Part shown: positions 55,730 through 63,862 of the stretch, piece by piece | How positions within the stretch are numbered: the stretch's first letter is position 1 | How the letters are laid out: each line of letters opens with the position of its first letter | Assembly: GCF_021728535.1 (NCBI RefSeq) | Contig: NZ_JAKKDU010000007.1 | Location: 1 to 64,000 of the forward strand | DNA: 64,000 nt | From: Wocania arenilitoris | GTDB taxonomy: Bacteria > Bacteroidota > Bacteroidia > Flavobacteriales > Flavobacteriaceae | Direction of reading: 5' to 3' | The notes under the pieces: generated by a model | What the model saw: the letters and a program-made list of their open reading frames with translations, nothing else | Told to the model about the DNA's origin: nothing | Database searches by the model: none | Translations under genes and position numbers: made by a program

Positions 55730-56743
55730 TTATGATTCTTTTGGATCAACCTTAACCCGCTCATCTCTATTAGCCAATTCCCAAGCCGTATAAAAAATAA
55801 GTTGGGTACGTGTTTCTAAAAATTCGTAATTTATTTTGTCTGGAGTGTCAGATGGTCTGTGGTAATCAGCATGTGTACCATTAAAATAAAAAATTACTGG
55901 CACATTGTTTTTTGCAAAATTGTAATGATCAGATCGGTAGTAAAAACGATTAGGATCATCAATAGCATTAAAAGTATAATCCAATTCTAGATTTACATAT
56001 TTTTTATTTACAGCTTCAGAAACATCATGCAATTCTTTACTTAGTCTATCTGACCCAATGAGGTACAAATAATTTTTACCATTTTCGTGTTTAGGATCTA
56101 CACGACCAATCATATCTATATTTAAATTAGTCACGGTATTTTCTAATGGAAAAATAGGATCTACATCGGTATAATAACGCGAACCAAACAAACCAATTTC
56201 TTCGCCTGTTACATGTAAAAATACAATAGAGCGTTTAGGTCCATTACCTTCTTCTGATGCTGTTTTGAAGGCTTTAGCAATTTCTAAGATTGCTACTGTG
56301 CCAGAACCATCATCATCTGCTCCGTTATTTATTTCGCCATCAGATGATATTCCAATATGGTCTAAATGAGCAGATATTACAATAACTTCGTTTGGCTTTT
56401 CTGAGCCTTTTATAAATGCCACAACATTTTCTGAAGTTTTAGCTCTACCTTTAAAATACTTTTCTGGTATTTCTTGAAAATAATTGCCATTAGCAATTGG
56501 AGAAGGGATTTTAGCATCTTCATATTGTTTTTTTATAAATTCAATGGCTTTTTTTTGTCCAGGTTCACCAGTTTTTCTACCTTCAAAATCATCTGATGCA
56601 TAGGTGTAAAGCATGTCTTTTAACTCGCTTGCTGCAATGGTTTTAGCATAGTCTGTAACATCTTTCTTTGCATTTTTATTATTTGAACTGCTACATGACG
56701 CTATTAGAATAGCCATACAAAAAAGCAAACCTATTTTTTTCAT
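55730..56743 (-). CDS. M28-family peptidase, lipoprotein (paralogue 1)
   Basis: The 337-residue protein has a lipoprotein signal (MKKIGLLFCMAILIASC). The M28 zinc peptidase core follows: VIVISAHLDHIG (first ligand His), NNGADDDGSGTVAILEIAKAF (bridging Asp), FLHVTGEEIGLFGSRYY (catalytic Glu pair), NLNIDMIGR and FYYRSDHYNFAKNNVPVIFYFNG (last His). Such cell-envelope aminopeptidases trim peptides outside the cytoplasm. It is about 60% similar by eye to the neighbouring gene and is separated from it by 69 bases, so the two arose by tandem duplication. Confidence 0.9.
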   Translation of the reverse strand: MKKIGLLFCMAILIASCSSSNNKNAKKDVTDYAKTIAASELKDMLYTYASDDFEGRKTGEPGQKKAIEFIKKQYEDAKIPSPIANGNYFQEIPEKYFKGRAKTSENVVAFIKGSEKPNEVIVISAHLDHIGISSDGEINNGADDDGSGTVAILEIAKAFKTASEEGNGPKRSIVFLHVTGEEIGLFGSRYYTDVDPIFPLENTVTNLNIDMIGRVDPKHENGKNYLYLIGSDRLSKELHDVSEAVNKKYVNLELDYTFNAIDDPNRFYYRSDHYNFAKNNVPVIFYFNGTHADYHRPSDTPDKINYEFLETRTQLIFYTAWELANRDERVKVDPKES

Positions 56744-56812
56744 TATATATACGTGTTGTTTTTAAGTTACTATATTACAAAAAAGGGAAATAAATATAGT
56801 GATTATTTGCTC

Positions 56813-57868
56813 TTATTTTAAGAACTCGTTGTCTTCATCTTTTCTAATACGATGCTCTTGATTCGCTATTTGCCATGCTGTTGCAAATATAAGTTTAGTA
56901 CGTGTTTCTAATACGTTATAATCTATTTTATCTGGTGTATCGGTAATTTCATGATAATCATCATGCACACCATTAAAGTAGAAAATAACTGGAATATCGT
57001 GCTTTGCAAAATTATAATGGTCGGACCGTTTATAATAATGATTTTTTTCACCTACAACATTATATCTATAATCTATATTAATGTTAAAGTAAGAATTATT
57101 TACTTTTTCAGAGGTATAGTGTAATTCTTTACTTAACCTGTCTGAGCCTATTAAATAGATATAATTTTTGTTATTTAAATGTGCATCATCAACTCGTCCA
57201 ATCATATCAATATTAAGGTTTGTAACGGTATTTTTTAAAGCAAATACTGGGTATTTTGTGTAATATTCAGAACCTTGTTTATTCAATTCTTCAGCAGTAA
57301 AATGAATAAATAATACACTTCTTTTAGGGCCATTGCCATCTTTTTTTGCTTGATTAAAAGCTTGAGCAATTTCCATTATAGCTACAGTGCCCGATCCATC
57401 ATCGTCGGCACCGTTAAATATTTCTCCTTTTTCTGAAATACCCAAATGATCAAGATGTGCTGAAATAATAATGACTTCTTCAGGTTTTTCAGAACCTTTA
57501 ATATATGCTAAAACATTTTCTGTTTTTTTTGCTTTTCCATAAAAGAAACTCTCAGGTATTGTTTGATAGTAATTAGCATTATTGCCATAAGGAGATTCTA
57601 TTTGTTCTGTTTGATAATATGATTTAAGAAACTGAGCTGCTTTTTTTTGCCCAATTTCACCTACTTCTCGACCCAAAAATTCATCCGACGAAAATTTATA
57701 TAAATGTTTGCTTAATTCTTTTGCTGATATAGTATTAGCATATTTTAAGGCAAGTGTGCTATCTACTAGCTCAATGTTTTCCTTTAAATTTTTAATTTTA
57801 GTAGTGTATTTGGCTGTAGCACAGGTGCCAACAAGTGTAAATGCAAATAGTATAAAAAAAGTTTTCAT
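56813..57868 (-). CDS. M28-family peptidase (paralogue 2)
   Basis: The 351-residue protein has an N-terminal signal-type hydrophobic stretch (MKTFFILFAFTLVGTCAT) with a Cys at residue 16, and an extended spacer before the M28 core. All zinc and catalytic motifs remain: VIIISAHLDHLG, NGADDDGSGTVAIMEIAQAF, FIHFTAEELNKQGSEYY, NLNIDMIGR and YYKRSDHYNFAKHDIPVIFYFNG. It is homologous along its length to the 337-residue neighbour, and both should be active. Confidence 0.88.
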   Translation of the reverse strand: MKTFFILFAFTLVGTCATAKYTTKIKNLKENIELVDSTLALKYANTISAKELSKHLYKFSSDEFLGREVGEIGQKKAAQFLKSYYQTEQIESPYGNNANYYQTIPESFFYGKAKKTENVLAYIKGSEKPEEVIIISAHLDHLGISEKGEIFNGADDDGSGTVAIMEIAQAFNQAKKDGNGPKRSVLFIHFTAEELNKQGSEYYTKYPVFALKNTVTNLNIDMIGRVDDAHLNNKNYIYLIGSDRLSKELHYTSEKVNNSYFNINIDYRYNVVGEKNHYYKRSDHYNFAKHDIPVIFYFNGVHDDYHEITDTPDKIDYNVLETRTKLIFATAWQIANQEHRIRKDEDNEFLK

Positions 57869-60197: not shown

Positions 60198-61535
60198 TTA
60201 GTGTTCATCTTTTGCATAGCGTTTCATTTCTGAAGTAACTTTTTCAAGAGCTTGTTCCCAAGCGCTTAGTAATTTATCGCTATACATTTCACCTAGCTCT
60301 TCTTGTATAGTTTCTAAAAGGCATTCTAAAACAACAGGATAGTGTTCTGTCTGAACACCATAACGCACATGACTTTTACCTAAAAGTTGAAGCCCCATGG
60401 TTAAGCTTTCTGGCCTACTCATAGAATATACAATACCACCAAGCATATGTGTTAGAAGTCTTCCTTGTGACGACATATTATTTTTAAATAATGATTGGGT
60501 ATCTGGAGCTTTATCGAATAATTTACCGTAAAATTTTTCAGCAAAAACATCTTCGTTTTTAAGTAAGAAATCAAGAGATTGCTGAAGTTCCAATTGAATA
60601 TCTACATTTTGAAAACCTAAGAGTTCATGGATTATAGTCTCATGATTATGACCGTCCATTTGGCTACTAAATGAGCGTCCAATGTCTAATGTATCTGCAG
60701 GAATTCCTTTTAGGATAGAATCTGAGATTAAAATACTGCTAAGAGCTTTTTTATTGTATGACTGGATTCTGCTAGCTGTATTTACTGGATCTCCCACAAC
60801 AGCAAATTGTTTATGCTTAGGATGACCTAAATGTCCGATATAGGCTTTTCCAAAATTAACGCCTATTCCCATTTTAATGTTCACATCAAAATCAACTAAT
60901 TCAATACGATTAAGCCGCTCTATAGCATATTGCATACCTAAAGCTGCTCTTACGGCATCTGTAGAATTTTTACTTTTTATGCCTCCAGAGACTCCAAATA
61001 AGCCAATGATTTCGTCTCCTACATATTGATAAATAATACCATTATTTATTAGTATGGGGTCTCCTAAAACCGTATAAAACCTATTTAAAATGTGAGCCAC
61101 ATCAAACGAACTGTTTTTTGAAGTCATTTTTGTGAACCCCCGAATATCACAAAATAGAATTGCAATGGCGCGTTCTTCGGCTACTCCTTCTGGAACGGTT
61201 TCTAATTGAAGCTTGTTAACTTCAGAATTTGTCCATACGAGTCGTTCAATGCTAACATTACCTTTAGCATAACATTGACAAGCTAATCGAATAGATGGAT
61301 CCCATTTTCTTAACCTTGCAATTTCTTGTTCTTTTTGCGTTCTAGTGTTTAGATTATGATGCCCTTCAATAACTCGTATTCTACAAGTAGTACATTGTCC
61401 ATTGCCTCCGCATTCATGTATATGTGGAATTTGATTTGTGATGGAGCACTCTAAAAGTGTTGCTTCCATATCATGATGTTCTATTTGTTGACTTATTCCT
61501 GTATAAGTTATTAGGGGAGTGTTAGTGGTTGGCAT
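60198..61535 (-). CDS. Ferredoxin - class III cyclase - globin fusion protein
   Basis: The 445-residue soluble protein has three parts. Residues 1-105: 2Fe-2S ferredoxin domain with Cys42-x5-Cys48-x2-Cys51 and Cys86 (HECGGNGQCTTC). Residues 118-290: class III adenylate/guanylate cyclase with metal-binding Asp130 (LFCDIRGFT) and Asp174 (YVGDEIIG), and transition-state Asn252 and Arg256 (VNTASR). Base-selecting positions read Gln170 and Ala245, neither the adenylate nor guanylate pair. Residues 325-445: globin with FAEKFYGKLFDKAPDTQSLF and probable proximal His389 (KSHVRYGVQTEHYPVV). It probably senses redox state and a haem ligand to control a cyclic nucleotide; substrate unknown. Confidence 0.85.
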   Translation of the reverse strand: MPTTNTPLITYTGISQQIEHHDMEATLLECSITNQIPHIHECGGNGQCTTCRIRVIEGHHNLNTRTQKEQEIARLRKWDPSIRLACQCYAKGNVSIERLVWTNSEVNKLQLETVPEGVAEERAIAILFCDIRGFTKMTSKNSSFDVAHILNRFYTVLGDPILINNGIIYQYVGDEIIGLFGVSGGIKSKNSTDAVRAALGMQYAIERLNRIELVDFDVNIKMGIGVNFGKAYIGHLGHPKHKQFAVVGDPVNTASRIQSYNKKALSSILISDSILKGIPADTLDIGRSFSSQMDGHNHETIIHELLGFQNVDIQLELQQSLDFLLKNEDVFAEKFYGKLFDKAPDTQSLFKNNMSSQGRLLTHMLGGIVYSMSRPESLTMGLQLLGKSHVRYGVQTEHYPVVLECLLETIQEELGEMYSDKLLSAWEQALEKVTSEMKRYAKDEH

Positions 61536-61652
61536 ACTATAGAGGGTTAATGAGGTTTAAAGCTACAAAAAAAATCATTGAATTGGCTTTTTGAAAGAAA
61601 CTTTTGAATATAGTTAAGTACGATTGGGTACACCAAATTTTAAAATAATGAT

Positions 61653-61694
61653 AACAGGCGCAATCTTAATTTTCAAGTTTAGATTGCGCCTGTT
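61653..61694 (-). terminator. Terminator of the TsdA-Tat-DsrE operon
   Basis: A 14-base perfect stem (61653-61666 with 61681-61694, AACAGGCGCAATCT and its complement) and a 14-base loop lie 21 bases after the DsrE gene stop. The T-run after it is weak. Confidence 0.7.
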
Positions 61695-61715
61695 AATTAA
61701 AATCTACTCTGAGTT

Positions 61716-62129
61716 TTACTGTCCTTCTTTAATATAACCCCAGCCTTCTTGTTGCTTTTCAATGATTTCTAAAATACCATCAGGGACACTTCTTACACCA
61801 TCAATAATTTGAGAATTTTCTATTTTATGACGTTTCATTGTGCCTTCGCAAATAACAAAATCGATATTACCCTTTTGGGCTAGCATTTCTAAATCTTCTG
61901 CAACAACAGATTTCTCTTTTAGTACCATTGCTATGGCGCCACTGTACATAACCACCTCAAAATTAGAGTCTGGGTAAGATTCCGACATCATTTTTACATG
62001 CCTAATTGTAGATTGATGTACTTTGGTATTGCTACTCGTTACATCGAATACAATTTTTACCGCATTTTCTTGAGCAAAAGACATTGTGGTAATTACCAAT
62101 GTCATTAGTAAATTTATAAATGTTTTCAT
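61716..62129 (-). CDS. Secreted DsrE-family protein
   Basis: The 137-residue protein has a signal peptide (MKTFINLLMTLVITTMSFAQ) and a DsrE/DsrF-like domain: AVKIVFDVTSSNTKVHQSTIRHVKMM, FEVVMYSGAIAMVLK, VAEDLEMLAQKGNIDFVICEGTMKRHKI and VRSVPDGILEIIEKQQEGWGYIKEG. A Cys in DFVICEGT corresponds to the sulfur-handling position in this family, and is a candidate sulfur carrier. I start at ATG 62129; longer frames run into the upstream gene. It is the last gene of the operon, 11 bases after the Tat-signal gene. Confidence 0.85.
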   Translation of the reverse strand: MKTFINLLMTLVITTMSFAQENAVKIVFDVTSSNTKVHQSTIRHVKMMSESYPDSNFEVVMYSGAIAMVLKEKSVVAEDLEMLAQKGNIDFVICEGTMKRHKIENSQIIDGVRSVPDGILEIIEKQQEGWGYIKEGQ

Positions 62130-62140
62130 ATTTATAAATT

Positions 62141-62818
62141 TTATTCTCCTGCAAAAATATAACCACAGCCTTTTGCTTGCGCTTTTCCAAGAGCCCATAC
62201 ACCAGATGGCACTAATTCTATATCGGAAATTAAACCTCCAATCCAATCTTTATATATTTCTTCAGGATTTCCTCCGTTTTTTTCGGCATATTTTCCGCTA
62301 TACACCTGTAGAGCTAAATTGCATACGCAAAATAATCCTCCTCTACTTTGCATTTCTTTTATACCGCCTGGGCCATTAATTGGGTAGTCACCATCTTGTG
62401 GTTCGTACCATGGATTTCTTAATGCAAAATCTTTTGTGTGATCTTTTACTCCAAAAAATTCACCTAATTTATATTTTGCCCACATGTCATCATTTAATGC
62501 AAGAGGAATAGCAGAATGACGCAAAACGGTCATCGCAGTTATGTCGCTATCTGGTGAATCTGTTGAATTGTGAGATAGATAAAATGCCCAATTCCATAGT
62601 ATTGGTAAACCTGCATGTGGCGTAGAACCGTCATACACTATACGATGTGTTCCTTTAATTTTGTCGAACCAATTTTCTGTAGCCTTCATTCCTTTTGTAT
62701 CAAAGGTTTTTGTGCTTGCATAAATTGGGTTTGTTAGTACAGATATTGTACTTGCAGTTGCACCAAGAGCTATTGCTCCTAGAAATTGTCGTCTTGAATT
62801 ACTGTCATTTGTTTTCAT
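62141..62818 (-). CDS. Tat-exported protein of unknown function
   Basis: The 225-residue protein has a twin-arginine signal: NSRRQFLGAIALGATASTIS, with Arg9-Arg10 before a hydrophobic stretch. The mature part includes THRIVYDGSTPHAGLPILWNWAFYLSHNST, TVLRHSAIPLALNDDMW and the Cys-containing GGLFCVCNLALQVYSGKYAEKNGG. I do not recognise a named family. Its position between TsdA and the DsrE gene suggests a periplasmic, folded-in-cytoplasm sulfur-cycle protein. Cofactor binding before export is implied by the Tat signal. Confidence 0.75.
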   Translation of the reverse strand: MKTNDSNSRRQFLGAIALGATASTISVLTNPIYASTKTFDTKGMKATENWFDKIKGTHRIVYDGSTPHAGLPILWNWAFYLSHNSTDSPDSDITAMTVLRHSAIPLALNDDMWAKYKLGEFFGVKDHTKDFALRNPWYEPQDGDYPINGPGGIKEMQSRGGLFCVCNLALQVYSGKYAEKNGGNPEEIYKDWIGGLISDIELVPSGVWALGKAQAKGCGYIFAGE

Positions 62819-62821
62819 AAT

Positions 62822-63862
62822 TTACTTGGTTTTAGTGATATTATATTTTTGTTTATAAAATGCCATTATTGGCTCAAATGGTCCTAATTTATGTTGTTCA
62901 GTAGGGAAGTTATCTGCATATGGTGGGTAAGGCGTAGATACAGGTTTTTTCTTTATATCTGGAAAGTCCTTTTCAGGATTCGATTTTTGAGGGCGATTGT
63001 GCATATTGATAAATCCTGCAACGTCATAGGCTTCTTCATCTGTCAATACCGGAGCATCATAAGTAGCTAGTTCAAAAGGCATATTCCCTTTAATAAATTT
63101 TGCAGCAGTAATAACTCGTGTCATTCCAGCACCATTATTAAATGAGTCGTCTCCCCAAAGTGGTGGGTATTCATAACTATAGCCGTCTGCATATAATGAA
63201 CCTTGTCCGTCTATTCCATGGCAAGTCACGCAATGCTGAGTAAATACTTTTTTGCCATTATCAAGGTTTACTGCTCTATTAGGTATTTCAAGGTTTAAAA
63301 ATCCTTTTCCTTTTATATTTCCATCTTCTGGCGCGTAACGACTTAACCATTCTAAATAAGCAACCATCCCTTTCATTTCTTTACTATCAAGAGGTAATAC
63401 TCTGCCATTCATGCTGCGTTCCATACAACCATTTATACGTTCTTCTATGGTGCCAATTTTATTTTCGCGTCCTCTAAATTGTGGAAACCTTTGTATGATA
63501 CCTATTAGTGGAGCTGAATATGGTTTTGTGCCTAGTCCTAAATGACAATTTTTACAGGATAACCTATTATTTTGATATACCATGTCTGGATTCCCATTAT
63601 CTGGACCAATATATTTTGGTGTTTTTTGAAATAGTTCGAACCCATATTTTAAAAGTTCATTGTTTTTAGAATCAGGTAATGTCGAAACATCATAATTCAT
63701 GTAATAAATATTTGGGAGATTATTTTTAGATTTAAATAAATCTAGAGGGATTGCATCAAAACAATAAAGTAGAGTTATGAAAGCTAATATTAATATTGAG
63801 CCAAAGTATAAAAACACAACTTTTCTGATTCTTTTATAAAAACTTGTAATTTCTGTATTCAT
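62822..63862 (-). CDS. tsdA: TsdA-like thiosulfate dehydrogenase, dihaem cytochrome c
   Basis: The 346-residue protein has an N-terminal membrane anchor (VVFLYFGSILILAFITLLYC), then two CxxCH haem motifs: Cys103-Cys106-His107 (SCKNCHLGLGTKPYSAP) and Cys211-Cys214-His215 (HCVTCHGIDGQG). Cys146 in RINGCMERSMNGR matches the rare Cys axial ligand of haem 1 in TsdA enzymes. FPQFRGRENKIGTIEERI and AGMTRVITAAKFIKGNMPF are also family-like. It should oxidise thiosulfate to tetrathionate in the periplasm, or run in reverse; direction cannot be told. It is the first of the three-gene operon. Confidence 0.87.
   Translation of the reverse strand: MNTEITSFYKRIRKVVFLYFGSILILAFITLLYCFDAIPLDLFKSKNNLPNIYYMNYDVSTLPDSKNNELLKYGFELFQKTPKYIGPDNGNPDMVYQNNRLSCKNCHLGLGTKPYSAPLIGIIQRFPQFRGRENKIGTIEERINGCMERSMNGRVLPLDSKEMKGMVAYLEWLSRYAPEDGNIKGKGFLNLEIPNRAVNLDNGKKVFTQHCVTCHGIDGQGSLYADGYSYEYPPLWGDDSFNNGAGMTRVITAAKFIKGNMPFELATYDAPVLTDEEAYDVAGFINMHNRPQKSNPEKDFPDIKKKPVSTPYPPYADNFPTEQHKLGPFEPIMAFYKQKYNITKTK

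Follow-up and report, generated by a model that had tools for sequence, protein, structure and literature searches.

The gene at positions 60198 to 61535 of a contig of Wocania arenilitoris raises the question of what a single protein does that seems to combine a ferredoxin, a nucleotide cyclase and a globin, and how such a protein came about. The preliminary description of this DNA had placed one 445-residue chain at these positions of the window (the whole stretch of 64,000 nucleotides that was analysed), and indeed, an unbroken minus-strand open reading frame of 445 codons spans exactly this interval, whereas the plus strand across it is full of stops. The features discussed below are:

60198..61535, minus strand: ferredoxin-cyclase-globin gene (445 aa, ATG start, stop included; Pfam matches and at least 21 full-length relatives)
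61242..61514, minus strand: [2Fe-2S] ferredoxin domain, residues 8-98 (Pfam Fer2, structural match, invariant Cys)
61185..61235, minus strand: linking helix, residues 101-117 (conserved residues, helix in models)
60609..61184, minus strand: predicted class III nucleotide cyclase domain, residues 118-309 (Pfam, Cya2 match, invariant catalytic residues)
60210..60602, minus strand: C-terminal M-family globin, residues 312-442 (Pfam, HGbI match, invariant pocket)
61652..61695, minus strand: terminator-like perfect 14-bp inverted repeat between the DsrE-like and ferredoxin-cyclase-globin genes

All three modules named in that description are matched both by Pfam, above the curated cut-offs, and by structure, and every residue it had singled out (Cys42, Cys48, Cys51, Cys86, Asp130, Asp174, Gln170, Ala245 and His389) is correct. 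In an alignment of 22 sequences that spans the phylum, and in which the deepest member is highly divergent, all four cysteines, Asp130, Asp174, Asn252, Arg256 and Gln170 are invariant, as are Tyr336, Phe350, Gln357, Leu361, His389, Tyr392 and Tyr399. The full-length AlphaFold model, built from 15 sequences, reaches a mean pLDDT of 66, a moderate confidence. The three-domain architecture is real, conserved and rare, and it is apparently new to the literature; the failure to find a paper describing it among open-access publications is weak evidence of absence.

Full-length relatives, at least 21 of them, are found in Flavobacteriaceae, Saprospiraceae, Echinicola, Marinigracilibium, Mangrovivirga and one deep-branching genome. 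Fourteen loci with 54-81% identity come from GTDB contigs of Seonamhaeicola, Mangrovimonas, Eudoraea, other Flavobacteriaceae or Flavobacteriales, Saprospiraceae, Echinicola, Marinigracilibium and Mangrovivirga, and were detected by a scan for exact peptides that reaches close relatives only; further relatives are encoded in genomes G042, G063, G077, G264, G479, G939 and G957. The two sets were drawn from different collections, so one species might be counted twice. When surveyed, the architecture was found in approximately 1% of the sampled genomes: 4 of about 150 relatives, 3 of 395 genomes in the phylum and 4 of 395 in the class (counts that include the genome studied here), and 1 of 245 in the class of G479 (a count that does not). 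Among plasmid records, ferredoxin-cyclases are present, none of them covering 80% of the query, and viral contigs yielded a single weak cyclase match. One metagenome-assembled genome carries two copies of the gene about 22 kb apart (L009 and L015, contig CAJXYJ010000002.1).

The three main domains are all under constraint: between close pairs, each has dN/dS values mostly of 0.015-0.15, so none is decaying. Phylogenetic trees, rooted arbitrarily at the midpoint and with G479 on a long branch, place the fused globins together (support 91/99) and likewise unite the ferredoxin-cyclase parts of the fused proteins (support 95/96). These groupings fit a single fusion event.

The N-terminal module has both the fold and the four cluster cysteines of a [2Fe-2S] ferredoxin. 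Pfam Fer2 covers residues 12-91 (E=5.9e-9), the spacing CX5CX2CX34C is of the adrenodoxin/ISC type, and residues 1-118, modelled on their own (pLDDT 81), match the [2Fe-2S] ferredoxins FdC (9i2a, Z 13.4) and Fdx (1i7h, Z 13.0). The helix that links this module to the cyclase is itself conserved, with W101, E105, L109, Q110 and P115 invariant among the 18 members of alignment A1, and residues 103-112 are helical in the full-length and 1-118 models alike.

The central module is assigned to the class III cyclases on the homology of its catalytic domain and on its catalytic residues. Pfam Guanylate_cyc (PF00211) matches residues 122-274 (E=1.4e-16), residues 116-315 of the model superimpose on the guanylyl cyclase Cya2 (2w01, Z 19.9 over 194 residues), and the metal-binding Asp130 and Asp174 and the transition-state Asn252 and Arg256 are invariant in the 22 sequences. 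Neither canonical base-recognition pair (Lys with Asp or Thr; Glu with Cys or Gly) is present, this pair being what sets the substrate rather than what defines the family. That these residues are unusual had been pointed out in the preliminary description, and the alignment bears this out: Gln170, which sits at the cyclase lysine position that reads the base, is invariant, and the position of Ala245 is occupied by A, S, T or C. With Gln in place of the usual Lys or Glu throughout, the substrate, and even the activity, is uncertain.

The C-terminal module is a globin of the M family, by its fold, its HisF8 and CD1 Phe, and its proximity to Hell's Gate globin I (HGbI) and flavohaemoglobin. Pfam Globin (PF00042) matches residues 334-437 (E=3.6e-13) and is the only globin family matched; Pfam has no protoglobin match at E 0.001. 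HGbI (3s1i) is found by sequence (1.3e-18), and the modelled residues 312-439 adopt a globin fold that aligns with it over 128 residues (Z 19.5, rmsd 1.6); among solved structures, the nearest relatives are HGbI, HGbRL, further single-domain globins and flavohaemoglobin. A globin is thus present in the region 325-445 where it had been proposed, with its true start at about residue 312, right after the last cyclase strand. His389 is the proximal histidine (F8) and is kept in every homologue, Tyr336 is B10, Gln357 is E7, Phe350 is CD1 and Leu361 is E11, with Tyr29(B10) and Gln50(E7) of HGbI aligning with Tyr336 and Gln357 at a fixed offset of 307. The earlier comparison with globin-coupled sensors holds with respect to the C-terminal position of the globin and fails with respect to its family: the globin belongs to the flavohaemoglobin/single-domain (M) family, so that by family the protein is no globin-coupled sensor, and the fusion is an independent one rather than a globin-coupled sensor with the order swapped. 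In HGbI, the ligand is faced by Tyr29(B10) and Gln50(E7), and the protein binds O2 with very high affinity and autoxidizes slowly (PMC4476040; PMC11203436). By analogy, the TyrB10/GlnE7/LeuE11 pocket suggests O2 as the preferred ligand, so that the haem most likely binds O2 in the first place and NO in the second.

Each chain carries a full set of [2Fe-2S] ligands, a full set of cyclase metal and transition-state residues, and a globin with a proximal His and TyrB10/GlnE7/LeuE11. We consider it fairly likely that the protein is a soluble one-component signal enzyme, that is, a dimeric cyclase gated by a haem ligand and by redox state. The active sites of class III cyclases are formed between two protomers, and because of this, the protein is expected to act as a homodimer. 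The haem ligand (most likely O2, then NO) and the redox state of the cluster would move the two cyclase protomers relative to each other, the former through the tightly joined globin A helix that starts a few residues past the cyclase, and the latter through the conserved linking helix 101-117 as a putative transducer; the shift would determine how fast the cyclic nucleotide is made. The cluster might also hold the haem in the ferrous state. In this manner, the protein probably reports electron supply and the presence of O2 or NO by way of a second messenger, and the combined redox and gas sensing proposed in the preliminary description is a plausible function. A more specific scheme, in which the globin haem receives its electrons from the ferredoxin, so that the cyclase responds only where electron supply coincides with O2 or NO, and in which the noncanonical Gln site yields a product other than plain cAMP, appears rather unlikely.

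Several other readings of the same domains have to be weighed. The product could be cGMP, cUMP, cCMP or a mixture, such that the protein does not belong to a cAMP pathway, which we view as possible although not as the expected outcome. An invariant Gln at the lysine position together with a small residue at 245 in 22 sequences points in this direction, as does the fact that the nearest solved cyclase is the guanylyl cyclase Cya2, and the ferredoxin-cyclases of Bacteroidota that have no globin likewise lack the Lys (Asp or Glu instead), whereas those of rhizobia retain Lys/Thr. However, the mycobacterial adenylyl cyclase Rv0386 has a Gln at the same position, so Gln170 leaves ATP possible as a substrate, and a non-cAMP product fits the sensor reading too, the difference being the product alone.

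It is also conceivable, albeit unlikely, that the globin is chiefly an enzyme, an NO dioxygenase or haem oxidoreductase for which the ferredoxin serves as the electron donor in place of the flavin reductase found in flavohaemoglobin, with the cyclase reporting turnover or being a passenger. The pocket resembles those of HGbI and flavohaemoglobins, the invariant Tyr399 lies 10 residues past the proximal His, at what is presumably position G5 of flavohaemoglobins, the top NCBIfam match is to NO-inducible flavohaemoglobin (far under its cut-off), and this is the only Pfam globin in the genome. Yet the cyclase retains all its catalytic residues and is constrained as much as the globin, the fused FAD/NAD reductase domain that characterizes flavohaemoglobins is not found by Pfam, and there is no invariant Glu near flavohaemoglobin H23, where position 436 varies. 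Haem-free sensor globins are known as well, for example, RsbR of B. subtilis (PMC4476040), and the domain could serve as a folded structural element that lacks any sensory haem chemistry; we regard this as highly improbable given that the proximal His, CD1 Phe, B10 Tyr and E7 Gln, all needless in a haem-free protein, are invariant in the 22 sequences.

Turning from the protein to its surroundings in the window, genes for a DsrE-like protein, a Tat-type thiosulfate-dehydrogenase-like protein and a SoxA/TsdA-type cytochrome c occupy positions 61716-63862. The inverted repeat at 61652..61695 folds with -24 kcal/mol (z -5.6), and this terminator-like hairpin suggests that the ferredoxin-cyclase-globin gene has its own promoter. 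The preliminary description had named sulfide among the possible ligands, which is not supported: the hairpin separates the sulfur genes from the gene, and they are missing at the matching place in the Seonamhaeicola relatives, so the neighbourhood was rejected as an argument for sulfide sensing. At 55730-57868, tandem genes encode related secreted M28-type-peptidase-like proteins of 337 and 351 aa, and L003-L005, the three Seonamhaeicola loci, retain them as a pair.

A candidate receiver for the product of the cyclase is encoded nearby. The genome encodes two class III cyclases, the one described here and a TPR-cyclase at C35:70506, and five cyclic-nucleotide-binding (CNB) proteins, among which only a sigma-54 activator (C35:68539-70371) has the canonical phosphate cassette, with the intact sequence FGEYALIDNETRS; both cyclases and this protein lie within about 12 kb, and a sigma-54 factor is present. 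The activator gene is divergent from that of the class III cyclase-TPR protein (C35:68539-72527, equivalent to L036:8539-12527, outside the window). Between the genes for the activator, of CNB-PAS-AAA architecture, and an OsmC protein there is a conserved sigma-54 -24/-12-like site (C35:68424, minus strand, or L036:8424, outside the window; L003:3521, L004:3636 and L005:3644). In the window genome as in L003-L005, it lies 61-73 bases upstream of the OsmC gene and is the sole such site at the threshold applied in each scanned stretch. The order activator, OsmC, PFOR, ferredoxin-cyclase-globin gene is kept in L003-L005, with a Usp gene following directly in L003 and one gene further in L004 and L005.

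The linkage to the other cyclase and the CNB activator is limited to Seonamhaeicola-type genomes; outside Seonamhaeicola, no fixed neighbourhood was found in L006-L016 except between near relatives with shared surroundings. The activator is kept in other Flavobacteriaceae, and several of its copies adjoin a cyclase frame of TPR-cyclase-like length. A fixed pairing of gene and activator as a general rule was rejected, most activator orthologues being in genomes without this gene and several adjoining the TPR-cyclase-like frame instead; accordingly, the activator is a possible receiver, not an exclusive one, and may read the output in the genome studied here. In G042, G063 and G077, no CNB protein with a canonical cassette was found by pattern among the matches listed. 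Four flavobacterial loci (L092, L097, L100 and L113) encode receiver-CNB-HTH response regulators of about 350 aa without the canonical cyclic-nucleotide cassette.

If the sensor reading is correct, two different redox/gas cofactors would serve one class III cyclase within a single soluble chain, in which an M-family globin was added to a pre-existing ferredoxin-cyclase unit and then retained across Bacteroidota. It makes the integration of electron supply with O2 or NO by one enzyme testable, in a phylum where cyclic-nucleotide signalling is little known and the receiver is not obvious in most of these genomes.

Among known systems, the ferredoxin-cyclases of rhizobia and Bacteroidota (for example, in Rhizobium tropici, L082, 583 aa, and in G285, L040, 308 aa) share the ferredoxin-cyclase unit, in the same order, without the globin. 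The rhizobial proteins are approximately 31-36% identical to the unit described here, have a hydrophobic N-terminal segment ahead of it that is absent in this protein, and (L082, L083) keep the canonical Lys/Thr base positions, in contrast to Gln170; the globin-less proteins of Bacteroidota (L020, L040, L041) have Asp or Glu at that position. On the globin side, HGbI of Methylacidiphilum, the closest solved globin, shares the M family and TyrB10/GlnE7 and is stand-alone, whereas in HGbRL from the same genus, also of the M family and a putative sensor fusion, the globin is N-terminal and the output of the Roadblock type. Globin-coupled sensors such as HemAT and DgcO likewise join a globin to a signalling output, with an S-family, N-terminal globin as opposed to the M-family, C-terminal one here; in HemAC-Lm of Leishmania major, the globin is N-terminal as well. 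HemAC-Lm is a soluble globin-coupled adenylate cyclase that responds to O2 with cAMP (PMC4534343), and as an O2-dependent globin cyclase, it is a working analogue, differing in being eukaryotic and in that no ferredoxin is described. The other working analogue, compared by description, is CyaC of Sinorhizobium meliloti, a class III cyclase that is redox-sensitive through membrane haems (PMC10463352). The six-helix membrane anchor with two b haems that defines the CyaC type is not found here, no membrane segment preceding the ferredoxin, which starts at about residue 8; where CyaC holds its di-haem b in the membrane, the protein described here would use the haem of a soluble globin.
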